From Psychrobacillus sp. FSL H8-0483 (lineage in GTDB: Bacteria; Bacillota; Bacilli; Bacillales_A; Planococcaceae), in NCBI RefSeq assembly GCF_038637725.1, contig NZ_CP152052.1, positions 541,501 to 605,500 of the forward strand: 64,000 nucleotides of DNA, written 5' to 3'. Both the position numbers and the translations under genes were made by a program. Shown here piece by piece: positions 3,275-37,647 of the stretch; the stretch's first letter is position 1, and every line of letters begins with the position of its first letter. The notes under the pieces were generated by a model. It did no database searches and was not told where the DNA came from. It saw only the letters and a list, made by a program, of their open reading frames with translations.

Positions 3275-3280
3275 ATTACA

Positions 3281-3315
3281 GGGATGTTACTGGTGCCTGG
3301 CACCAGTAACATCCC
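3281..3315. repeat. Dispersed palindrome with GGTGCCTGGCACC core, copy 2
   Basis: A perfect 17-bp inverted repeat with a single-base centre: GGGATGTTACTGGTGCC, T, then its exact complement. The 19-base centre is the same as in copy 1 at 341-376 apart from one base, while the outer arms differ but still pair. This suggests that the structure is conserved. It lies 6 bases after a separate terminator, so it is not needed to end the MMPL transcript. Confidence 0.75.
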
Positions 3316-12252: not shown

Positions 12253-12277
12253 CCAATAATATACTGAAGTTAGTCCT

Positions 12278-12378
12278 CTTATCTTCAAGACGGTTACCGT
12301 CTATTGGAATTAGCACCACACCTTATTGGCTGGTTGCTGAGACATCTTTGGGCCAATCCCTCCGTCTCTCTAGATAAG
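12278..12378 (-). promoter_or_regulatory. SAM-I (S-box) riboswitch aptamer upstream of metI-metC
   Basis: On the minus strand the region begins CTTATC with AGAGAG and CGGAGGGATTGGCCC, followed by AAGATGTCTCAGCAACC. These are the conserved S-box blocks. It closes with GATAAG, which pairs with the initial CTTATC as helix P1. An intrinsic terminator follows at 12252-12221. High SAM should end transcription before metI and metC. This is established knowledge for the family; the match here is unmistakable. Confidence 0.93.
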
Positions 12379-12684
12379 AAATAAATATTAAATTTTCTAA
12401 ATGTTAATTTAAATCAGTTTACCATGGTAAATATCCAAATACAAGTTGAAAATTTAAGACTTCATCTCAGATGAATAAGAGAAACCATTGCTTTCCAATT
12501 TTCTTTTTCCCTGCTTTCTTCTTGTTACCTTGGTAGTAATTAAGATTTCATCTGGAATTAGTATACCTATTAGTAGGAAAAATAATGCTTATCCAATTAT
12601 CTTAAAGTAGGCATATGTCCGTTACTTGAATTCCCCCAAGACATATAGATACATGGATAATACAAAAAAGGGGGTTAAAAGTAA

Positions 12685-27666: not shown

Positions 27667-28116
27667 ATGACATATTTATTGCAAGGAATACTAAGCTTTA
27701 TTGCTGCTTCGGCATTTGGAGTAATATTTAACGCACCGAAAAAGTCCCTCTTTTACTGTGGGCTTGTAGGGATGACCGGATGGCTAGTTTATTCTTTTGT
27801 AAACCATTTAAATAATGACCAAGTGATTGCTTCCTTTGCTGGTTCATTTTCTGTTGCATTTGTTGCGCATTTAATGGCTAAAAAGTTTAAAATGCCAATG
27901 ATTATTTTTAGTGTAGCAGGAATTATCCCTCTAGTCCCAGGAGGCTCAGCGTATAATGCAATGCGCAATGTGGTGGAAAAAGACTATGGAGTAGCCGTAG
28001 AATATGCAGCACTAGCATTAATGATTTCGGGGTCAATTGCAATGGGATTAGTTTTTGCAGAAATTATTACACAAATTTGGGTAAAAGTTATAGGAAAATT
28101 AAAATTAAAACCGTGA
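27667..28116 (+). CDS. Threonine/serine exporter ThrE-type, C-terminal subunit (YjjB-like)
   Basis: 149 residues with four predicted helices, ATG after AAGGAGG. KSLFYCGLVGMTGWLVYSFV and FSVAGIIPLVPGGSAYNAMR match the DUF3815/YjjB family. The Pro-Gly-Gly motif echoes the N-terminal partner. The two genes form a two-cistron operon that ends in a terminator at 28108-28147. Confidence 0.83.
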   Translation: MTYLLQGILSFIAASAFGVIFNAPKKSLFYCGLVGMTGWLVYSFVNHLNNDQVIASFAGSFSVAFVAHLMAKKFKMPMIIFSVAGIIPLVPGGSAYNAMRNVVEKDYGVAVEYAALALMISGSIAMGLVFAEIITQIWVKVIGKLKLKP

Positions 28117-28147
28117 GAAAAAGGAAATCCTTTACTCACGGTTTTTT
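28108..28147 (+). terminator. Terminator of the split ThrE operon
   Basis: AAACCGTGAG pairs with CTCACGGTTT around a short loop and TTTTT follows. The stem begins over the last codons. Confidence 0.85.
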
Positions 28148-28218
28148 TAGCTAAAGGATAAGTAAGAATTTATTCTCTCGTTATCCAAAATAGTACTAAC
28201 CTGTTGACTAAAGTTGTA

Positions 28219-28403
28219 AGAGGGCGATGGATGGACAAAAAGCCACAAGATTACCGAAAAAGTGAGAGGAGGATCGTGACGCTAGTCACGATTCTCCTCT
28301 CTTTAAAATTGCTCGGTAATGATGCAGCTAAAGTCCATTCCAAAGCAATCCGGAAATGTCTGCAAACAGGTATTGCACTTAAAGGGCACTTGCGCTTTTC
28401 TTA
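28219..28403. repeat. Structured intergenic element, copy A
   Basis: Nested inverted repeats define the element. GGATGGAC (28229-28236) pairs with GTCCATTCC (28333-28341). ATTACCGA (28250-28257) pairs with TCGGTAAT (28313-28320). A central 17-bp hairpin is built from GAGAGGAGGATCGTGAC (28264-28280) and its complement (28285-28301), with loop GCTA. The 3' part reads GGTATTGCACTTAAAGGGCA then TTGCGCTTTTCTTA. Copies B (36655) and C (37249) keep the same order of paired blocks with different bases in the stems. The element ends in the stop codon of the EAL gene (28401-28403, minus strand). Confidence 0.7.
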
Positions 28404-30419
28404 GTTAAGTTTAAGCAGCATTTCCACTTCTTTAGCTGATATGGGCTGACTAATATAATAGCCTTGGACAGAGTCACAGCCCATTTGGGTTAATAAATCA
28501 TACTGTTCTTTCGTTTCTACTCCTTCTGCAACTACTCCGACGTTTAGAGATTGTCCGAAATAGATTAAACCTTGTACGAGTTTTTGCAGTTTTTCCTGTT
28601 GAGTAATGGAACTTACAAACGATTTATCAATTTTTAACTTTTTAATAGGAAGAAGCTGCAAATATCTTAGCGAGGCATAGCCTGTTCCGAAATCATCCAA
28701 AATGAAAACTATTCCTTCTTCCTTAAGCGTTTGCATTTGTTGAATGATTGATTTCTCTGCTTCTGCTTCCAAAGCAAACTTTTCCGTAAATTCAATTTGT
28801 ATTAATTCAGGTGAGCAATTATACTTTTTCAAAACTTTTCGAATGGTTTTTACCATGTTTTTATCTCGAAATTCTCGAATGGAAGAGTTAAAACTTACTT
28901 TTACTGGGATACCTTGTTGCTGCCAAATAGCGGCTTGCTCACAGGACTTCTCAAGAATAAAAGTACCGATATCATTAATTAAACCAGTCTCTTCTGCAAT
29001 TGGTATTAACTCATCAGGAGGAACAACACCAAGGACATCATCTTCCCAACGTACAAGCGCTTCTACAGCAGTAATTTTGCCTATCGCCAGATCTCGTTGT
29101 GGTAAATACATAACATGCAAATCATTATGATTAAGTGCTACTAGTAATCTTTTTTCGATTTGAATTCTTCGAGTGAGCTTGTAGTGGTCTGATTGGGAAA
29201 GACTCGAAATCATTCCTCCACCTTCTAGTTTTACTTTTTGGATAGTAGAATTGGTTGCTTTTAATAAATGTAAGTAAGATTGTTGATCTTCAGGGAATCT
29301 TGTAATGGCTCCACTAACTGTGATAGGAATAACTCTACTGTCTAGATAGATAGGATTTTGTTTTAAAAAGTTCACAAATCCCTGTATATACCAATCACTT
29401 AAAGGTGTAATGAGTGCAAAATCATCTCCATCCGCTCGAGCTATAATGGAATCTTCGAAATAGATCTTCAATCTTTTAGTAAACTCGATCAACAAAAGAG
29501 ATTTCGTTTGATCGTTAAAGATATCTTTTAAGGTATAGAATTGATCGATACTAATAAAAACAAAAGAAAAATGTTTGTTATCTTCAATATATTCCGTGAC
29601 AACTTCTTCTAAACGATGTCTACTCATTAATCCTGTTTCCGTATCTACATAAGCTATTTGCTCAAGTCTAGATTGTAATAATTTTTTTTCTGTAATTTCT
29701 TCTTCCAATAACAAATAGTAAAGCGTATTATTTTCAGTATCGGTAATCGGTATTGCAAGTATGTTCACCCAATAGTTAAGACCATCTTTTGTCATTTTTT
29801 CGACAGTACCCTGGAACTTGTTTCCTTTTTGGATAGTATGGATAATTTCATCTGCAATGCTAATATGATCAGGTGTATTAGGGAAGAGTTGCCAAAATGA
29901 TTTTCCTAATATACGTTTAGGTGTCCAGTTACTTTTCTTTAGAAACGATTCATTGGCATGAATAATAAGTCCTTCATTGTCTAAATAAAGGACCATAAAA
30001 GAATCCGATAATCCTTTTTTCAGGAGCTGTAATTCTAAAAATGAATAATCTTGATTTTGAATTGTATTGGACTCTATTTGAAATAAAACATAAGATTTAT
30101 CGTCTATGGAGAAAGATTTTGCAATGAGAGAAGTCTTAGTAGTTTCTCTATCTTTAGAATAAATAACAACTGGATTCAAACGAACGGGATCTACATTTTG
30201 TACTATTGTTTCCCATTTGGCGGATAGGTGTCCATTAGTATACTCATTAAATATCGGTAACTTTAACCCTTTTAAATCATCAAAGTGATAGCCAAATTGT
30301 TTTTCTGCCTCACTACTCCACCATATAATATGACCATCTATATCTGTTATAAAGGTAGGATAAGGTAAATGTTTTAACACAGTGTTACTTAAATCTATTA
30401 ATTCTTCATTTAGATACAT
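28401..30419 (-). CDS. PAS-PAS-GGDEF-EAL protein, predicted c-di-GMP phosphodiesterase
   Basis: 672 residues. ATG 30419 has GGAGG 8 bases upstream; an in-frame ATG at 30434 overlaps that site. Two PAS domains (about 10-120 and 125-240) include WWSSEAEKQFGYHFDDLKG and ILGKSFWQLFPNTPDH. The GGDEF domain (about 255-410) has ARADGDDFAL, so the signature is DGDDF instead of GGDEF and cyclase activity is doubtful. The EAL domain (about 425-670) keeps catalytic blocks: VEALVRWEDD, SFNSSIREF, IEFTEK, ILDDFGTGYASL, LKIDKSFV, VAEGVET and QGYYISQP. It should hydrolyse c-di-GMP in the cytosol; no membrane helices are seen. Confidence 0.88.
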   Translation of the reverse strand: MYLNEELIDLSNTVLKHLPYPTFITDIDGHIIWWSSEAEKQFGYHFDDLKGLKLPIFNEYTNGHLSAKWETIVQNVDPVRLNPVVIYSKDRETTKTSLIAKSFSIDDKSYVLFQIESNTIQNQDYSFLELQLLKKGLSDSFMVLYLDNEGLIIHANESFLKKSNWTPKRILGKSFWQLFPNTPDHISIADEIIHTIQKGNKFQGTVEKMTKDGLNYWVNILAIPITDTENNTLYYLLLEEEITEKKLLQSRLEQIAYVDTETGLMSRHRLEEVVTEYIEDNKHFSFVFISIDQFYTLKDIFNDQTKSLLLIEFTKRLKIYFEDSIIARADGDDFALITPLSDWYIQGFVNFLKQNPIYLDSRVIPITVSGAITRFPEDQQSYLHLLKATNSTIQKVKLEGGGMISSLSQSDHYKLTRRIQIEKRLLVALNHNDLHVMYLPQRDLAIGKITAVEALVRWEDDVLGVVPPDELIPIAEETGLINDIGTFILEKSCEQAAIWQQQGIPVKVSFNSSIREFRDKNMVKTIRKVLKKYNCSPELIQIEFTEKFALEAEAEKSIIQQMQTLKEEGIVFILDDFGTGYASLRYLQLLPIKKLKIDKSFVSSITQQEKLQKLVQGLIYFGQSLNVGVVAEGVETKEQYDLLTQMGCDSVQGYYISQPISAKEVEMLLKLN

Positions 30420-30553
30420 ATTCACGGCCTCCATATAATTAACTATTATTAATTATATAGAATTTAGTGAAAATAGTCATTAGTCTAGAACAATATATTC
30501 ATGCGCATTTGTTTTATAGGCTAAAATACCTTGTATATTTATATGGAAAGCGC

Positions 30554-30645
30554 TGTTATATCTTACTGTTGTTTTTAGCATATAATTTGCGGCAGACTCC
30601 CGCGGAAAGCAAGCGGATTCTACCAAATAACAACAATGTAATTTA
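30554..30645. repeat. Inverted-repeat element, family M (TGTTATAT), copy 1
   Basis: The left end TGTTATATCTTACTGTTGTT and the right end AATAACAACAATGTAATTTA are imperfect inverted repeats. The GC-rich centre contains GACTCCCGCGGAAAGCAAGC. Related copies are at 43860-43966 and 57341-57475. No ORF; it looks like a MITE. Confidence 0.65.
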
Positions 30646-30675
30646 CTATTGAAAAAAGAGAAAAAGGTGATGTAA

Positions 30676-31590
30676 ATGGAGCGTTGGAAAGGCATACTAC
30701 TTATTATAGTGGGTTCTATGATGTGGGGTGCAACAGGTCCGATGATGGAGTGGGTATTAAACAATAGTAATTTGTCTATTTCTTACTTCCTTACTATTCG
30801 ACTAATTGCTGCTGGAATATGTATATTAGTCTTTTTGAAGTTACAGAGAAAACAAATCTTTGCAATATGGAAAGAAACTATTTGGCTGAAGCAACTACTT
30901 ATTTTTGGTGTGTTTGGAATGCTCGGTGTCCAATATACGTTCGTAGCAGCAATTGAGGAAAGTAATGCATCAATTGCAACCTTACTTCAATTCTTAGGAC
31001 CTATCTATATCATTTTATTTGTTTCATGGAAAAATAAAATGTACCCCCCTAAATATCAAATAATTGGTATTATTGGAACGCTAGTTGGATTGTTTTTATT
31101 ACTAACCAATGCAAAGTTGGATCAACTATTAATAAGTAACGAAGCATTAATTTGGGGGTTAGCTGTAGGTGTTACGTTTTCTATTTATACGGTGTATCCA
31201 GCACGACTCATGAAAGAATGGGGAGTGCTAGTCGTTGTAGGGTGGGGAATGTTAATAGGAGGAGTAACACTTGCAATTATTTCAGGATCATGGCGTTCGA
31301 ATGAGTGGGATCAACTTGTACATTACCCAATAAATATAATGGTGTTATGCATTATTATTGTAGGTACTATTGCTTTTGTTCTCTTCTTATCGAGTATGAA
31401 ATACATAACAGCAGTAGAAACTAGTATCTTATCAAGTGTAGAGCCATTAACAGCTATGATTATATCGGTCATTTGGTTTGGTCAAATACTTGGAGCTTGG
31501 CAGTACATAGGAGTAATAGTAATGCTTTTATTTGTCACATGGCTAACCGTTGCAGGAGAAATAAAATGGGAATTTAAAAGGAGAAAATGA
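30676..31590 (+). CDS. EamA/RhaT family (DMT) transporter
   Basis: 304 residues with ten hydrophobic helices in two EamA repeats. GSMMWGATGPMMEWVLNNSN opens repeat one. AIEESNASIATLLQFLGPIY is the conserved helix-4 motif, and ITAVETSILSSVEPLTAMI the matching motif in repeat two. The start ATG 30676 follows AAAAAGGTGATG. It exports a small metabolite or amino acid; substrate unknown. Monocistronic, between a family M repeat and the ABC exporter operon. Confidence 0.85.
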   Translation: MERWKGILLIIVGSMMWGATGPMMEWVLNNSNLSISYFLTIRLIAAGICILVFLKLQRKQIFAIWKETIWLKQLLIFGVFGMLGVQYTFVAAIEESNASIATLLQFLGPIYIILFVSWKNKMYPPKYQIIGIIGTLVGLFLLLTNAKLDQLLISNEALIWGLAVGVTFSIYTVYPARLMKEWGVLVVVGWGMLIGGVTLAIISGSWRSNEWDQLVHYPINIMVLCIIIVGTIAFVLFLSSMKYITAVETSILSSVEPLTAMIISVIWFGQILGAWQYIGVIVMLLFVTWLTVAGEIKWEFKRRK

Positions 31591-31697
31591 CTTTAATAAT
31601 GAAGCAACCTTTTTCTATATCTTAATAGAAGAATATGGCATAATAGGTTTTACAGAGGATTAATTCGAGTGACGAAGAATCTAGGGGTGTTGTAATT

Positions 31698-33434
31698 GTG
31701 AAAACTGTATTATCTTATTTATCGCCTTATAAGTGGCTGGTTGTTACTGCATTATTGTTTATGCTAATCGAACTTTCTGTGGAACTTGTTCAACCATTAT
31801 TAATAGCAATAATTATTGATGATGGTATTCTAGCAGGTGACCAGCAAACGATTATTTTTTGGGGAAGTATCATGCTTCTACTTTCGGTTATTGCTTTTTT
31901 TGCCGGAATCATAAACACATTTATCGCCTCTCACACGGTGCAGAGCTATGGATTTGACATACGCCAAGCACTATTTAGAAAGGTTCAATCGTTTACAATG
32001 GCCACTTTTCTAAAGTTTCCTTCATCGAGCCTAATTACACGACTAACAACGGATGTAACAATTACACAAAACGTCATATTTATGGGGCTTCGAATAATGC
32101 TTCGTTCTCCTTTAGTAGTCGTTGGAAGTATCATCATGTCCTTTTTTGTACATCCTTATTTAGCTATGTTTCTTGTAATCGGCACACCATTTTTAGTTAT
32201 TTTCCTGTATGCGATGAGTCGCAAAGGTTTAACCCTTTTTGGGAAAGTACAAAAAAGTGTAGACCAAGTTACCCGTAAAATTCAAGAAAATCTCCAAGCA
32301 GTTCGTTTAATAAAAGCCTATTTGCGTGGCAATTTTGAATCAACTCGATTTGCTACAGTTGCAGATACACTGAAAATGGATAATGTGAAGGCATTCCGCA
32401 TTATGGAGTTAATATTACCTGTTCTTTTATTTGTGATGAATGTGAGTTTAATGGCTGTTCTTTGGTTTGGAGCAAAAGAGATTCAAACTGGGGGAGCGCA
32501 GATGGGAGAACTTGTCGCGATAGTCAATTACGCCATGCGTATGACAGGTGCTTTTTCCATGTTCGCCTTCATCATCATATTTTTCTCAAGAGCAAAAGCT
32601 TCAGCTGAACGTATGGAAGAAGTATTAATCGAAGAAGAAGGAATAGAAGACTTTAGCTCAGACTTAAAGGAAGCTATTCCTGGAATAGGTGAAATTGAAT
32701 TTCAACATGTTTCTTTTCATTATCCTACGACAGATGCTCCCGTTTTGAAGAATGTATCCTTCACGGTTAAGCCTGGTTCTAAACTTGCGATTATGGGAGC
32801 GACAGGTTCTGGAAAGTCTACATTATTGAACTTAATTCCACGTTTTTTTGATGCAACAGAAGGTGAGATTTTCATCGATGGGGTTGAAGTGAAGGATTGG
32901 TCTTTAAAGGAATTAAGACAAGTAATTGGGTTAGTTCCCCAGCAATCGATTCTCTTTACAGGAAGCATTGAAGAAAATTTAGGTTGGGGTGACTCAACTG
33001 CAACGGAAGAATTACTGAAAGAGGCTGCTAAACAAGCGCAAATTCACAATTCTATTGAGCAATTTCCAGATCAATATGATACAAGAGTTGGTCAAAAAGG
33101 AGTCAATTTATCTGGTGGGCAAAAGCAAAGACTCTCTATTGCGCGTGCATTAGTGAGAAAACCAGAGATTTTACTGTTAGATGATAGTACAAGTGCGCTA
33201 GATGTGTCGACGGAAAATGCATTATGGGAAGCCTTAGAACAAGAAAAAGCAACAATGCTGGTCATTACACAAAAAATTAGAACTGCTAAAGGGGCCGATC
33301 AAATTCTTCTATTAGAAGAAGGCGAAGTTTCGGCATATGGTACGCACGAACAACTGATGGAAAGCTCCTCTTTATATAGAGAAATTGCAGAATCACAGCA
33401 GGAGGGAGACGAGTATGATGAAATTCATTCGTAA
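31698..33434 (+). CDS. Heterodimeric ABC exporter, subunit with degenerate ATPase site (YheI/LmrC-like)
   Basis: 578 residues, GTG start. Six transmembrane helices fill residues 1-310 and the nucleotide-binding domain follows. Walker A is MGATGSGKSTLL and the signature is LSGGQKQR. Walker B is LLLDDSTSALD, with Asp in place of the catalytic Glu, and the H-loop reads VITQKIRTA, with Gln in place of His. This pattern marks the subunit that supplies the degenerate ATP site in YheI/YheH, BmrC/BmrD and LmrC/LmrD multidrug exporters. The next gene overlaps by 20 bases and carries the intact catalytic residues. Role: export of drugs or peptides. Confidence 0.88.
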   Translation: MKTVLSYLSPYKWLVVTALLFMLIELSVELVQPLLIAIIIDDGILAGDQQTIIFWGSIMLLLSVIAFFAGIINTFIASHTVQSYGFDIRQALFRKVQSFTMATFLKFPSSSLITRLTTDVTITQNVIFMGLRIMLRSPLVVVGSIIMSFFVHPYLAMFLVIGTPFLVIFLYAMSRKGLTLFGKVQKSVDQVTRKIQENLQAVRLIKAYLRGNFESTRFATVADTLKMDNVKAFRIMELILPVLLFVMNVSLMAVLWFGAKEIQTGGAQMGELVAIVNYAMRMTGAFSMFAFIIIFFSRAKASAERMEEVLIEEEGIEDFSSDLKEAIPGIGEIEFQHVSFHYPTTDAPVLKNVSFTVKPGSKLAIMGATGSGKSTLLNLIPRFFDATEGEIFIDGVEVKDWSLKELRQVIGLVPQQSILFTGSIEENLGWGDSTATEELLKEAAKQAQIHNSIEQFPDQYDTRVGQKGVNLSGGQKQRLSIARALVRKPEILLLDDSTSALDVSTENALWEALEQEKATMLVITQKIRTAKGADQILLLEEGEVSAYGTHEQLMESSSLYREIAESQQEGDEYDEIHS

Positions 33435-35238
33435 ACCTTTTGGATATGAACCTGTTATTACAAAGGAAGATTTGAAGAAGGATAATAATAAGAAAGTGGA
33501 GAAAGCTTCTGACTGGAGAAGCGTTCTTAGTCGAATTTGGAAGCTAGTAGATGAACAGCGTTTTTTATTAATTGTTGTACTGCTCTTAGTTGTAGTCAGT
33601 TCTGCTTTAGCGCTACTAGGACCTTATATAATCGGTATTATTATAGACCAATATATTTCGAAAAGTATTTTTGCAGGATTAGTAAATATGATTGGTATAT
33701 TGATCATTGTGTATGTCTTTTTATCGGTCACAATGTATTTACAAAATTATTGGATGATTGGTATTTCACAGCAAACAATATACAGACTACGGACTGGTTT
33801 ATTTGATCATCTTCAAAAACTTCCAGTAACCTTTTTTGATAAACGACAGCACGGAGAACTAATGAGTCGAATGACAAATGATATTGAAAATGTCAGTCAA
33901 ACATTGAATACCTCCTTTATACAAGTATTTTCAAGTATCCTAACATTAGTTGGAACGACGGGCGTGATGCTTCTATTAAGTCCGCTATTAACAGCTATTA
34001 CGCTTATTATTGTACCTTTCATGTATTTTGGAATGCGCTGGATTACGAGACGTACCTCTAAACTGTTTAAAGAGCAGCAGCAGGCAGTTGGAGCATTAAA
34101 TGGGATGATTGAAGAGACGATTTCTGGTCAACGAATCGTCAAAGCATTCTCGCAGGAAAGTCGTATGCTAGAAGAGTTTTCAGTAAAAAGTGAACGCTTG
34201 AAAACAACAGGATTCTGGGCATTAACGTACTCAGGCTTTATTCCAAAAGTAATGAATCTATTAAATAATATAAGCTTTACGTTGGTAGCTGCTGCCGGTG
34301 GTATATTAGCATATTATGATCAAGTAACAATTGGAGAAATCGTGATCTTCACAGAGTATGCCCGTCAGTTCACTCGCCCTCTAAATGATTTAGCAAATCA
34401 ATTTAATACGGTCCTTTCTGCAATTGCAGGGGCTGAGCGTGTGTTTGCAATTATCGATGAACCTGCAGAATTAGATCAAGCAGAAGAAAATAAAGACTAT
34501 AAACTGAAAGGAAATGTGACGTTTGAGGATGTAACATTTCGGTACAATAGAGACGATGAAAGCCCGACGATCGAGCAAGTCTCTTTCCATGTAGGAGCAG
34601 GGAAAACTGCTGCTTTAGTTGGAGCAACTGGTGCAGGGAAAACAACCATCATGCAGTTACTTTCGCGCTTTTATGAAGTAAATGAAGGAACAATTTTAAT
34701 AGATGATATTCCTATGGAAAAGTTGCCAAGGCAAACTTTACGCAGCCAAACAGCATTTGTATTACAAGATCCATTTCTGTTTGAAATGACTGTGAAAGAA
34801 AATATTCGATACGGAAAATTAAATGCAACAGATGAAGAAGTATTACATGCTGCCAAAGAAGCAAATGCACATGAATTCATCATGAAGTTACCTAATGGAT
34901 ATGATACGACTTTAACAGCAGATGGTGGAGAAATTAGCCAAGGACAAAAGCAATTATTATCGATTGCTCGAGCGCTTGTAGCTGATCCTGCCATACTGTT
35001 ATTAGATGAAGCGACATCTAGTATTGATACAGTAACTGAACTAAAAATACAAGAAGCACTGGAACGTTTAATGGAAGGTCGCACTAGTTTCGTTATTGCT
35101 CATCGATTAAATACTGTACGTAAAGCGGATTTAGTATTTGTTATGGAAAGTGGAAAACTAGTAGAATCGGGATCGCAAGAAGAGTTATTACAAAAGCAAG
35201 GGCGATATTACAGCATGCTTACAAATTCAAAAATATAA
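33415..35238 (+). CDS. Heterodimeric ABC exporter, catalytic subunit (YheH/LmrD-like)
   Basis: 607 residues. ATG 33415 follows GGAGGGAGAC. A long N-terminal cytosolic stretch (MMKFIRKPFGYEPVITKEDL) precedes six membrane helices, as in YheH. The ATPase domain has Walker A GATGAGKTTIMQLL, signature ISQGQKQLLSIAR (Gln for the first Gly), an intact Walker B LLLDEATSSID and H-loop IAHRLNT. The non-canonical signature here faces the degenerate Walker site of the partner, while the partner's canonical LSGGQ faces this intact site. It overlaps the first subunit by 20 bases, ensuring co-translation. Confidence 0.88.
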   Translation: MMKFIRKPFGYEPVITKEDLKKDNNKKVEKASDWRSVLSRIWKLVDEQRFLLIVVLLLVVVSSALALLGPYIIGIIIDQYISKSIFAGLVNMIGILIIVYVFLSVTMYLQNYWMIGISQQTIYRLRTGLFDHLQKLPVTFFDKRQHGELMSRMTNDIENVSQTLNTSFIQVFSSILTLVGTTGVMLLLSPLLTAITLIIVPFMYFGMRWITRRTSKLFKEQQQAVGALNGMIEETISGQRIVKAFSQESRMLEEFSVKSERLKTTGFWALTYSGFIPKVMNLLNNISFTLVAAAGGILAYYDQVTIGEIVIFTEYARQFTRPLNDLANQFNTVLSAIAGAERVFAIIDEPAELDQAEENKDYKLKGNVTFEDVTFRYNRDDESPTIEQVSFHVGAGKTAALVGATGAGKTTIMQLLSRFYEVNEGTILIDDIPMEKLPRQTLRSQTAFVLQDPFLFEMTVKENIRYGKLNATDEEVLHAAKEANAHEFIMKLPNGYDTTLTADGGEISQGQKQLLSIARALVADPAILLLDEATSSIDTVTELKIQEALERLMEGRTSFVIAHRLNTVRKADLVFVMESGKLVESGSQEELLQKQGRYYSMLTNSKI

Positions 35239-35248
35239 GGAGGAAAGT

Positions 35249-36115
35249 ATGGACATATCTATTATGACAGTGTCGATTCCGGTAGATACCGATACTTTGA
35301 AAGAAATACAAGAGTTAATTCATTGTGCGTTTATAGAAGATCAAGTAGATTACGCTGCATTATTAAGTGTTGATGAGCTATCCGATTCTTTTCTAAAGGG
35401 ATTTTGTGTATTGGCTTACGATGATGACACGGATAAATTAGTGGGTGTAATATCTGCCATAGATCGAATAGCAACATTAGATTTTGAGTGGAGTGCAGTT
35501 GTTTTACCAAATGTGCGAAGACAAGGCATCGGGGAGCAACTAATAAAGGAGCTTACAAGAAATCTAGACCTTAGGGGAGCAATGGAAGATATAGCGTTGG
35601 TACCAAAAGCTTCGAAAGCGGGACAACAATTAATAAGCAAATTTGGATATGTTCATGACTTCTCGGAAAGAACGATGGCAGCGGACGCAGTAGAAAGTGA
35701 AATGATCAGTGAAATCGAAATTACCCCATATTCATCAGAAGAATTGGAGCTAATTGAAGTGTTAGCAAGTGCATTTGGAGATACGGAGGAAGAAGCAAGA
35801 GAGCTTATCGCATTTAATACGCAAACTCCCAATCGTAAAATGATGCTTGCTTTAATTAATAAGGAAGTAGTAGGAACTGTTTCGATTGTGGAAGAAACCG
35901 AGAAACTATGGGTTACGGGCCTTGCAGTGCATGAAAAAGCACGTGGGAGAGGAATAGCAACTAGTATATTAAATTGGTCTAAAAATGAAGCTCATCGTTT
36001 GGGAAAGGCAGAAGTGTTGCTAGATGTGGAAACAGACAACGAAGATGCAATTTCTGTTTATAAAAAAGTAGGGTTTAAAACAATCAACTTCACACATTTC
36101 TATCGAAAAGGATGA
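35249..36115 (+). CDS. Tandem GNAT acetyltransferase
   Basis: 288 residues, ATG after AAGGAGG, 10 bases after the ABC exporter. Two GNAT domains are visible: residues 1-145, with VVLPNVRRQGIGEQLIKELT as acetyl-CoA loop, and 150-288, with LAVHEKARGRGIATSILNW and ENDNEDAISVYKKVGF-like residues VETDNEDAISVYKKVGF. Acceptor unknown. Its place in the exporter operon suggests a role in modifying or resisting the same toxic compound, but this is only guilt by association. The terminator begins inside its last codons. Confidence 0.82.
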   Translation: MDISIMTVSIPVDTDTLKEIQELIHCAFIEDQVDYAALLSVDELSDSFLKGFCVLAYDDDTDKLVGVISAIDRIATLDFEWSAVVLPNVRRQGIGEQLIKELTRNLDLRGAMEDIALVPKASKAGQQLISKFGYVHDFSERTMAADAVESEMISEIEITPYSSEELELIEVLASAFGDTEEEARELIAFNTQTPNRKMMLALINKEVVGTVSIVEETEKLWVTGLAVHEKARGRGIATSILNWSKNEAHRLGKAEVLLDVETDNEDAISVYKKVGFKTINFTHFYRKG

Positions 36116-36136
36116 CCCACTGGGTCATCCTTTTTT
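36106..36136 (+). terminator. Terminator of the ABC exporter/GNAT operon
   Basis: AAAGGATGACCCA pairs with TGGGTCATCCTTT and is followed by TTT. The left arm overlaps the GNAT stop codon. Confidence 0.88.
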
Positions 36137-36216
36137 GAAGAATAAGAAAGTATTTAATTTTTCGTTCCATAAATCCAGTGTTTCAGATATTTTGGAGAAA
36201 AAGATCGATTCAATAC

Positions 36217-36417
36217 TACTGTTGATTTCCGTTGCAGGCGGACGCTTTCCGCGGGGTGAGCGATGAGCCATCACCTAAAAAGTGAGAAATGTGATATTCC
36301 CACAGAGTGTTTAAAAAGGAACGAAGGCTAAGTGCGCCACCTCATGTGGCAACGCCTTCGTGACCAACATCCTGTTGGCCTCCGCTGGAGTCGCCGCCTT
36401 CCACTACAATCAAGTAA
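36217..36417. repeat. GC-rich dispersed repeat, family R, copy 3 (reverse orientation)
   Basis: It starts TTGATTTCCGTTGCAGGCGG with ACGCTTTCCGCGGGGTGAGC and ends with CTCCGCTGGAGTCGCCGCCT and CCACTACAATCAA. These are the reverse complements of the ends of the copies at 45651 and 16767. The middle contains CTCATGTGGCAACGCCTTCG and a run similar to part of the copy at 4312. No gene. Confidence 0.7.
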
Positions 36418-36654
36418 ATGTTTTCAAATCAATCATAAAAGAAAGGACAACTAAAAGATAAGAAAGTATATAGTTTTTGAGTGCATAAAGTCACTGGTAC
36501 TTTGACCGATAGGAAAATGCAGTGGATTGTATACAAGGTAAGGTAGAGGGGATGGACCTGTTAGCTAGCAAGAATCTTTAAGAAGAGCATTTCTGCTAAT
36601 TTTCTTCTACTGGTAAAAGAGTATATGACCAAAAAATAGTTAGCATCTATTGTA
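36418..36654. other. Intergenic stretch without a supported gene
   Basis: AT-rich sequence between a family R repeat and structured element B. No ORF with a ribosome site and no clear structure is seen. Minus-strand frames crossing into element B read through its GC-rich stems and are not credible. Confidence 0.5.
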
Positions 36655-37055
36655 TAGAGGAGCACTAGAGCAACCGAAATTGCATCTTCGGAGGCCCGCA
36701 CGATGCGGGTCAGGCAGTCGTTGCGAAATGTTCTTTTATTTTGCGACGAGCTTTGCGCAGGAGCACCACGAAGTCGCGAACTTAGACTGTCCTCCTCTGA
36801 AGCTTTATGAGCTGGAAAGCATCTTTTCACTAATTATCCAAAAAATTTTTAACCTTATTCGTACTGTTAAAGGAGGGCGACGGACAGACAAACTCGATAT
36901 GATTACCGAGAAAAGAGAGGCTGGTCGTGACATCTGTCACGACCAGCCTCGCTTAAAAATCAATCGGTAATGATATAGCAATAAGTCTGTCCAAAGACCT
37001 CCGAAAACTATACAAAACAGGTTTTGTACTTAGAGAGCGCTTACGCTTTTCTTAA
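36655..37055. repeat. Structured intergenic element, copy B
   Basis: The core is GGACAGAC (36882-36889) pairing with GTCTGTCC (36985-36992). Inside it, ATTACCGA (36902-36909) pairs with TCGGTAAT (36964-36971). In the centre is a perfect 15-bp hairpin, GAGGCTGGTCGTGAC (36917-36931) with its complement (36936-36950), loop ATCT. An upstream hairpin, CCGAA-ATTGCATC-TTCGG, lies within 36670-36695 and has a counterpart in copy C. The 3' end AGAGCGCTTACGCTTTTCTT matches copy A. The insert between the upstream hairpin and the core (about 115 bases longer than in C) holds TTTTGCGACGAGCTTTGCGC and GGAGCA, which recur at 63811-63837. Confidence 0.7.
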
Positions 37056-37232
37056 AAGAAAGTATATGAAATTAGACTACTGCGAACCTAGTGTTCATGG
37101 TGTTTTGAAGAGTATTTCTCGCTAATTCTATCGCTTTCTATCAGGCGTTCCTTGCTTATTTTTGCAAAGCGGCAATATGGGGATGCTATATAGAAAAGGG
37201 ACACTTCCTTCCAATCGAAAAGGTGGAAATAC

Positions 37233-37495
37233 GATAGAGAAGGACTGAGCAGCCAAAATTGCATCTTTGGCTGCTTACTGTAGGGCCTATTCTTTCATTT
37301 CCAAAAGCTTTGGCACTACTATTACAAGTAGCTATGGAGAGTGACGGACGAACGACTACCACATGATCATCGAAAAAATGAGGAGGGATGTGACTTTGTC
37401 GCATCTATTTCGTATCAAGAAATCCAGGTAATGGTGTAGAACTCGTTCAGTTCCCCGCACTTTAAAAGCACCTATACATAGAGTGCCTAGTGTGT
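37233..37495. repeat. Structured intergenic element, copy C (degenerate)
   Basis: GCAGCCAAA-ATTGCATC-TTTGGCTGC (37249-37274) is a perfect 9-bp hairpin with the same loop as in copy B. GACGGACGAACGAC (from 37343) can pair partly with TCGTTCAGTTCC. The central hairpin is GATGTGAC/GTCGCATC around TTT. ATCATCGA and AGGTAATGG stand where ATTACCGA and TCGGTAAT occur in A and B. The order of blocks is the same; pairing is weaker than in A and B. Confidence 0.5.
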
Positions 37496-37647
37496 TATCA
37501 CTGCAATTTACTGGGTACTTTTGGTTAATCACGTGTGATAATAAGAATCACATTTACAAAGACTAAACATAACACACCTATTATTTTCATAAACTTGTTA
37601 TAGGATGAATGGTGAAGAGATTGTTCAATCGAAAAGGAGAGATACTA

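Follow-up and report, generated by a model that had tools for sequence, protein, structure and literature searches.

The stretch of DNA analysed in this study, hereafter the window, comprises 64,000 nucleotides of the genome of Psychrobacillus sp. FSL H8-0483 (G000:C1:541501-605500), a single contig of 4,136,829 bases (~4.14 Mb) that is referred to below as the host genome. Three elements, designated A, B and C, lie behind genes of the window. Element A follows the terminator of a ThrE-type gene and faces a convergent GGDEF/EAL gene (28401-30434), whose stop codon (TAA, - strand) coincides with the last three nucleotides of A (28401-28403); B follows the terminator of a GNAT gene, and C lies directly behind B (Table 1). 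All three are members of a large, dispersed, non-coding and folded repeat family of the soil-dwelling genus Psychrobacillus; the family is named S in this analysis. A first-pass annotation had described them as three copies of one structured element with compensatory base changes. The observation behind it is real, yet the three elements belong to a large mobile repeat family and do not represent one functional RNA.

The structures of A and B correspond to that description, and both fold far better than their shuffled sequences (z-scores of -6.6 for A and -9.5 for B, none of 200 shuffles reaching an equally good fold in either case), while the fold of C is near chance (z of -1.7, 11 of 200 shuffles equally good). 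The element limits first assigned were too narrow, because A begins at ~28152 behind a T-run, B begins at ~36137, and C covers ~37056-37453. The outer arms pair in A and in B, those of A (GGATGGAC/GTCCATTCC) with a one-base bulge, whereas C has ATCATCGA/..AGGTAAT in place of the arms initially quoted and is without the CGCTTTTCTTA tail. The central hairpins of A and B were thought to share only the inner CGTGAC/GTCACG, but GAGAGG at their base is also common to both; the inverted arms of B are 20 nt long and 95% complementary. Element C matches the S family profile (51.5 bits, 1.1e-14) and is a divergent member of another S subfamily. At least one further host-genome copy of this C-type subfamily (L021, 71-198) has a shared, different 3′ part ending in ...GTGTGTTATCA, which may be compared with 37333-37453 of the window.

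In agreement with the earlier view that no named RNA family has this layout, A, B and C have no Rfam match at the curated threshold, the above-threshold matches being two Bacillaceae-1 RNAs nested in B. A coding element was considered and judged unlikely: the two halves look protein-like in some frames, but the sole open reading frame (ORF) of at least 100 aa inside B (106 aa) has no Pfam match, and pairing is conserved.

Table 1. Elements A, B and C, their parts and other features, in window coordinates.
Feature	Position	Strand	Evidence or remark
Intrinsic terminator of upstream ThrE-type gene, target of insertion A	28107-28148 (stem 28107-28145, T-run 28142-28148)	+	Inspection, inverted-arm search
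Element A, 5′-truncated copy, 3′ end CGCTTTTCTTA	28152-28403	+	Joined to T-run within ~3 nt
A outer helix P3	28229-28236 / 28333-28341	+	One bulge
A helix P5, ATTACCGA / TCGGTAAT	28250-28257 / 28313-28320	+
A central hairpin P6	28264-28301	+	17-nt arms, 94% complementary, 4-nt loop
A 3′ terminator-like hairpin plus T-run	28381-28403	+	RNA folding, inspection
Intrinsic terminator and T-run of upstream GNAT gene, target of insertion B	36106-36136	+
Element B, full-length unit with two nested repeats	36137-37055	+
B conserved 5′ leader AGAATAAGAAAGTATTTAATTT	36139-36160	+	Leader match at G000:C1:577639
B nested palindromic repeat	36222-36402	+	Bacillaceae-1 match 36312-36378; limits by eye
B hairpin CCGAA-ATTGCATC-TTCGG	36674-36691	+	Second nested repeat breaks in just 3′
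B second nested repeat	36692-36802	-	Bacillaceae-1 match 36695-36801
B core	36834-37055	+	P3 36882-36889/36985-36992, P5 36902-36909/36964-36971, P6 36913-36954
B 3′ hairpin and CGCTTTTCTTA	up to 37055	+	Part of core
Element C, divergent copy in tandem directly behind B	37056-37453	+	Leader-like AAAAGAAAGTATATG
C hairpin, loop ATTGCATC	37248-37275	+	Inverted-arm search
SAM riboswitch	12276-12380	-	90.7 bits

Copies and anatomy of the S family

BLAST and profile searches identified 56 S copies or fragments in the host genome rather than three. These were taken from loci fetched around BLAST matches, so the list is not exhaustive, and some entries are halves of one broken copy; further S units at leader sites (e.g. 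L172, L173 and L175) stand outside the 56. Weaker overlapping profile matches, most of them opposite-strand echoes of the palindrome, were dropped. A covariance model built from 44 copies matches all 19 genomes of the genus, with 5 to at least 27 matches each (opposite-strand echoes possibly included), and 22 of the 121 genomes searched, namely the 19 Psychrobacillus and three of one sister genus. The S motif is also present in a scaffold of Psychrobacillus soli NHI-2, and one S site was found in Cytobacillus citreus. BLAST of A against a plasmid collection and of B against a phage collection returned no match.

Without nested inserts, a complete S unit measures ~550-630 nt. Its 5′ leader, AGAATAAGAAAGTATATAAT, is followed by a hairpin-bearing middle part and then by the folded core, and the unit closes with a terminator-like hairpin that ends in CGCTTTTCTTA. 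By eye, the loop of the middle-part hairpin (mostly ATTGCATC) is near-invariant while its stem varies (CCGAA/TTCGG, CCAAA/TTTGG, GTCCGAA/TTCGGAC). Many copies are degenerate or truncated. At L162 and L030 (G000:C1:1140708-1141907), S leader and core are separated by ~1 kb in which opposite-strand genes were read by eye, a membrane-protein-like ORF and a helix-turn-helix (HTH) regulator, as if the S unit carried or had acquired cargo.

The two Bacillaceae-1 repeats inside B lie in opposite orientations (36222-36402 and 36692-36802). The right junction of the 36692-36802 type is common to six host-genome copies and both junctions to four, and the insert-bearing S copy has therefore multiplied. 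Because it is nested in S with junctions common to several copies, the Bacillaceae-1 "sRNA" looks like a mobile repeat here.

Insertion sites of S are frequently empty in relatives. Nine sites of a 12-site query were followed in the host genome, and among 60 orthologous stretches 48 contained no detectable element and 12 contained one; orthology in this comparison rests on the downstream gene end, and a stretch was scored as empty when the profile did not match it at E 0.01. Some of the stretches counted as empty show remnants by eye (L101).

Insertion target, ends and orientation

Full-length S units start directly 3′ of intrinsic terminators, which belong either to host genes or to S copies already in place. 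A search for the leader returned 28 matches, 23 of which were read as unit starts and are all co-oriented. The other five were excluded, L177 and L187 as the internal second motif of B-type units, and L179, L180 and L183 with three mismatches, against the orientation rule and not behind a T-run; a reversed-pattern control of this search also gave two matches. A T-run lies at most 20 nt upstream of 20 of the 23 leaders, compared with 21% of random 20-mers, and upstream of the T-run there is usually a stem, as in an intrinsic terminator.

Several copies without a recognisable leader obey the same rule, being joined to a T-run or lying no more than ~11 nt from it, as in A (28148/28152) and the copies at 2382743, 2609886, 2627586 and 2720711. 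Among young B-type copies, truncated ones included, 14 of 21 begin at a T-run (within ~11 nt, by reading), and so do 8 of 20 copies of a second species, G007 (by eye). Some empty orthologous sites consist of a plain terminator with a convergent gene close behind (L142, L144, L110, L112 and L158), including the terminator of the ThrE-type gene at L142 and L144. The T-run and flank of the terminator at L158, GCTTTTTTAATTGG, recur unchanged at the 3′ end of the filled host site 3227979. In tandem arrays, a unit begins behind the T-run of the preceding unit (B to C; L163-L165). Downstream, a convergent ORF follows 31 of the 56 copies and often ends a few nucleotides from the element.

The leader is unrecognisable in 30 of the 44 copies that have a 3′ end, and leaders also diverge. 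With its strict requirements for loop and T-run, a simple terminator scan missed the 3′ hairpins of A and B as well as the two host terminators; the evidence for the 3′ hairpins comes from RNA folding and inspection.

The orientation of S follows replication in the host genome, where 29 of 29 copies at 0-2.07 Mb are on the + strand and 27 of 27 in the rest of the genome are on the - strand, so that 56 of 56 are co-directional with replication. GC skew in the sampled loci is +0.079 in the first half and -0.074 in the second. On the basis of this change of sign, the origin is taken to lie near position 0, which makes the S strand the template on which the lagging strand is synthesised. The direction of genes does not account for this orientation: of 55 copies with an upstream ORF called at a minimum of 90 aa, 15 have it on the opposite strand (10 of 55 at a 110-aa limit). 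In other genomes with long contigs, a two-arc arrangement accommodates 24 of 25 listed copies in G008, 18 of 19 in G004, 13 of 14 in G011 and 5 of 5 in G003, but as 0, 5, 397 and 497 of 1000 label shuffles, respectively, reach such a fit, only G008 and G004 are informative. The orientation rule is thus strong, with exceptions outside the host genome.

Folding and covariation

Covariation was evaluated on a MAFFT alignment of 62 copies (one of the 63 listed copies was omitted); a second alignment was made from these 62 rows after removal of seven outliers and eleven near-identical rows. The helices tested were read from the sequence of B, which favours that structure, and slid-partner controls offset this in part. 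In the 62-copy alignment, these helices pair in 87.0% of cells, compared with 79.2% after shuffling. Cells changed on both sides number 204 against a shuffled mean of 55.5, and none of 500 shuffles was as high, which bears out the compensatory base changes proposed from the three copies; pairs with a double-sided change number 27 against 22.0 (6 of 500 shuffles as high). The covariation score is 0.275, compared with 0.040-0.078 for slid partners. Covariation is strongest in the central hairpin and can also be seen in the outer arms, with no more than one double-changed cell in the ATTACCGA/TCGGTAAT helix itself; RNAalifold on the MAFFT alignment returned the central hairpin and none of the outer helices. 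By eye, the 3′ hairpin also changes in sequence while a hairpin and T-run stay (GCGC-TT-GCGC in the host genome, CCGGGC/GCCCGG elsewhere). In relatives, the 3′ hairpin of L047, L051, L154 and several of L215-L234 is swapped for an unrelated one of the CCGGGC/GCCCGG type, with the T-run end kept.

A different picture emerges from individual copies. Among 15 young B-type copies, differences from the consensus are equally frequent at paired (46 of 1346, 3.4%) and unpaired positions (44 of 1394, 3.2%; p = 0.75), and single changes within pairs produced 24 mismatches, 14 GU pairs and one Watson-Crick pair. The structure of S is conserved between subfamilies and lineages, not at each site. The proposed selection on a folded RNA is supported in that the structure covaries, but not as selection acting on each resident copy. 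A structure kept in spreading lineages and not in each resident copy fits a mobile element whose fold serves its movement. Template-switch correction during replication can also preserve perfect palindromes, and some of the compensatory changes of the central hairpin could stem from it.

Mechanism of movement and comparison with known systems

Mobility, target, strand, end anatomy, covariation and the lack of measurable per-copy constraint are directly supported by the S copies themselves. According to PMC4424553, intrinsic terminators are the insertion sites of group IIC introns, and for introns that lack an endonuclease a strand of the replication fork supplies the primer; RmInt1 reverse-splices into the lagging-strand template, as stated in PMC8914252. 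We tentatively favour, with slightly less than even confidence, a reading of S as a non-autonomous retroposon resembling a short interspersed element (SINE), whose terminated RNA is copied in at the replication fork. A more specific form of it is held more loosely: S might be a bacterial SINE copied at forks by the reverse transcriptase of another element of the group IIC intron type, with terminator T-runs as target and primer and with tandem growth. With its terminator target, an apparently fixed 3′ end and a variable 5′ end, S would seem to suit a retroelement better than a RAYT/IS200-type transposase.

According to this retroposon model, S would be transcribed, and its transcript would stop at its own terminator hairpin with a U-run, with CGCUUUUCUU as the predicted end. 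Where the lagging-strand template contains a target terminator, its hairpin may stall the nascent strand, which would then end in an A-run; this A-run could pair with the U-run of the S RNA and prime reverse transcription from the RNA 3′ end. Incomplete copying would yield 5′-truncated copies joined to the T-run, and each new copy would bring a terminator that may become the next target, giving rise to tandem arrays. Priming at forks with incomplete extension would thus account together for T-run sharing, truncation and tandem growth. The folded core would serve as the handle for an RNA-protein complex. The likeliest candidate enzyme is a reverse transcriptase of the group IIC intron type acting in trans, because resident group II introns insert at this kind of target too.

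A reverse transcriptase scores above the RVT_1 cut-off in 15 of 19 genus genomes, all of which carry S. In the other four, the best S scores are weaker (p = 0.02), a suggestive difference that is confounded by phylogeny and model training. The intron protein of the host genome has matches, mostly distant, in 14 of 19 genomes. The intron 5′ end is readable at five of eight reverse-transcriptase loci and in all five lies directly behind a stem with a T-rich tail, as S does; these include one intron of the host genome and one from another family. Two scanned intron loci, L086 and L089, are group II introns by Rfam (D1-D4 types, 46-141 bits), and we read the resident introns as class C. The genome G011 has 18 RVT_1 matches, several of them near-identical, suggesting a recent burst of group II introns. 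Two adjacent weak reverse-transcriptase-like ORFs with open frames of 422 and 402 aa (G000:C1:1334376-1336559) could be a paired reverse-transcriptase defence system or an unrelated retroelement.

A number of results weigh against the retroposon model. RVT_1 is absent or below the cut-off in G001, G002, G016 and G018, which have 12, at least 27, 20 and 5 S matches, and the host intron protein finds no match in G001, G003, G008, G016 and G018; strict dependence on a resident group II intron was rejected, as several S carriers have no intron-protein match. No S copy lies at the eight reverse-transcriptase loci examined (~1.5 kb flanks), and no partner gene is common to all S carriers. Of the young B-type copies, 7 of 21 do not begin at a T-run. 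The 3′ end is missing in 12 of 56 cores, some being halves of one broken copy, so the loss of ends is not purely 5′ and the asymmetry is only moderate. A sigma-70 promoter scan of A and B found none on the + strand. Stem mismatches (GU 115 vs AC 93) are not decisive and give no clear RNA-strand signature. The leader TAAGAA... and the 3′ end ...TTCTTA might be the short inverted termini of a DNA element, and at site 2720711 five of ten relatives also carry an element, which may reflect an old insertion or a hot spot.

Transposition of single-stranded DNA of the IS200/IS605 or REP-RAYT kind, driven by an HUH (Y1) enzyme, is unlikely. The enzyme would in this case cut the S strand of the lagging template and join it to the 3′ side of a T-rich target, in keeping with the T-rich target of S, its 3′ hairpin followed by a short single-strand tail, and its orientation locked to the lagging template (56 of 56), an insertion bias that is a trait of these systems. 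The first-pass annotation had suggested recognition by such a transposase, and RAYT-like Y1 genes (PF01797) are indeed present in 18 of 19 genus genomes. However, S was found at none of eight distinct Y1 loci (within ~1.5-2 kb), and four of the eight carry another perfect palindrome, TACAAGAGTGTTACTGGTGCCTGGCACCAG..., which is likely the RAYT partner; on these grounds a RAYT partnership of S was judged unlikely. PF01797 is missing from the sister-genus draft genome G086 (25 S matches) and from G002 (at least 27), no clear hairpin was seen by eye near the left end of S, and 5′-truncated copies joined at T-runs would be unexpected. A perfect 43-bp palindrome of the TACAAGAGTGTTACTGGTGCCTGGCACCAGTAACACTCTTGTA type is present at the Y1 loci L084 (= L096), L085, L094 and L097, and related palindromes lie at 335-381 and 3275-3311 of the window.

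Somewhat less probable is a miniature inverted-repeat transposable element (MITE), i.e., a deletion derivative of a cut-and-paste insertion sequence (IS) with short terminal inverted repeats (5′ TAAGAATAAGAAAG and 3′ CTTTTCTTA), perhaps a TA or TTA duplication, and a long palindromic interior. To our knowledge, cut-and-paste MITEs normally show neither complete replication-orientation bias nor terminator targeting nor fixed-3′/variable-5′ copies, and S shares its target rule with the resident group II introns instead. Nevertheless, the weakly inverted ends (TAAGAA/TTCTTA) are kept in the internally deleted copies L171 and L176, TTA or TA stands at both flanks of many copies (no clean duplication was scored), and the MITE-like repeats bcr1-bcr3 are known in the Bacillus cereus group (PMC3446304).

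It is improbable that S is a host-useful RNA or DNA element selected at each site, such as a small RNA, a 3′ untranslated region element or a bidirectional terminator between convergent genes. The covariation, the terminator-like 3′ hairpin and the frequent convergent ORFs speak for this possibility, but young copies change equally at paired and unpaired positions with mostly disruptive single changes, the nine host sites are mostly empty in relatives, and many copies are decayed. A highly degenerate group II intron relic, rather than a separate element, is very improbable and close to refuted: target and orientation are as in resident group II introns, and truncation is described as frequent in such introns (PMC4424553), but a search of 28100-37600 at E values as high as 10 gave no Rfam group II domain, although this library does detect the two genuine genus introns, the 5′ end is AGAATAAG and not GTGCG, and no ORF of B has a Pfam match.

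Bacterial repeats are usually attributed to DNA transposases, whereas S appears to parasitise retroelement machinery. If this is true, S would be a prokaryotic counterpart of SINEs, showing how structured RNAs colonise a bacterial chromosome. Even without an RNA step, S provides a measurable rule tying transcription termination, fork direction and insertion, and the 19 genomes supply a natural set of filled and empty sites for testing this rule.

A dispersed structured repeat is an already known kind of bacterial element. No earlier description of the S family was found in the literature searched, an absence that is only weakly tested, and as far as these searches show no described element combines terminator targeting with a replication-locked orientation and ends like those of a retroelement. 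Group IIC introns share with S the site directly behind an intrinsic terminator, the same strand and, as described in PMC4424553, frequent truncated copies; unlike them, S is without the GTGCG start, Rfam group II domains (D1-D4, domain V) and reverse transcriptase, and ends in a terminator-like hairpin. The bcr1 and other bcr repeats of the B. cereus group are, like S, dispersed, structured, intergenic and MITE-like repeats of a Bacilli genus, 150-200 nt in length (PMC2267715, PMC3446304); compared with S by description only, they are not credited with terminator targeting or replication-locked orientation in the portions of these accounts available to us.

Bacillaceae-1 RNA (RF01690) occupies the same intergenic regions and is nested in S, but it is a separate sequence family that S does not match. 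The REP/BIME repeats with RAYT are palindromic and dispersed as S is, and RAYT-like genes are present in the genus; S is 5-15 times longer, differs in its ends, and is absent from the eight Y1 loci with their other palindrome in four. Eukaryotic SINEs driven by long interspersed elements (LINEs) are non-autonomous, have structured RNA, a fixed 3′ end and 5′ truncation, and are conserved in source lineages without per-copy constraint. S differs from such retroposons in being bacterial and in lying behind terminators, and its RNA-mediated movement is one that we infer; it is like them in its non-autonomy, structure and lineage-level conservation, and apparently also in a fixed 3′ end and 5′ truncation.

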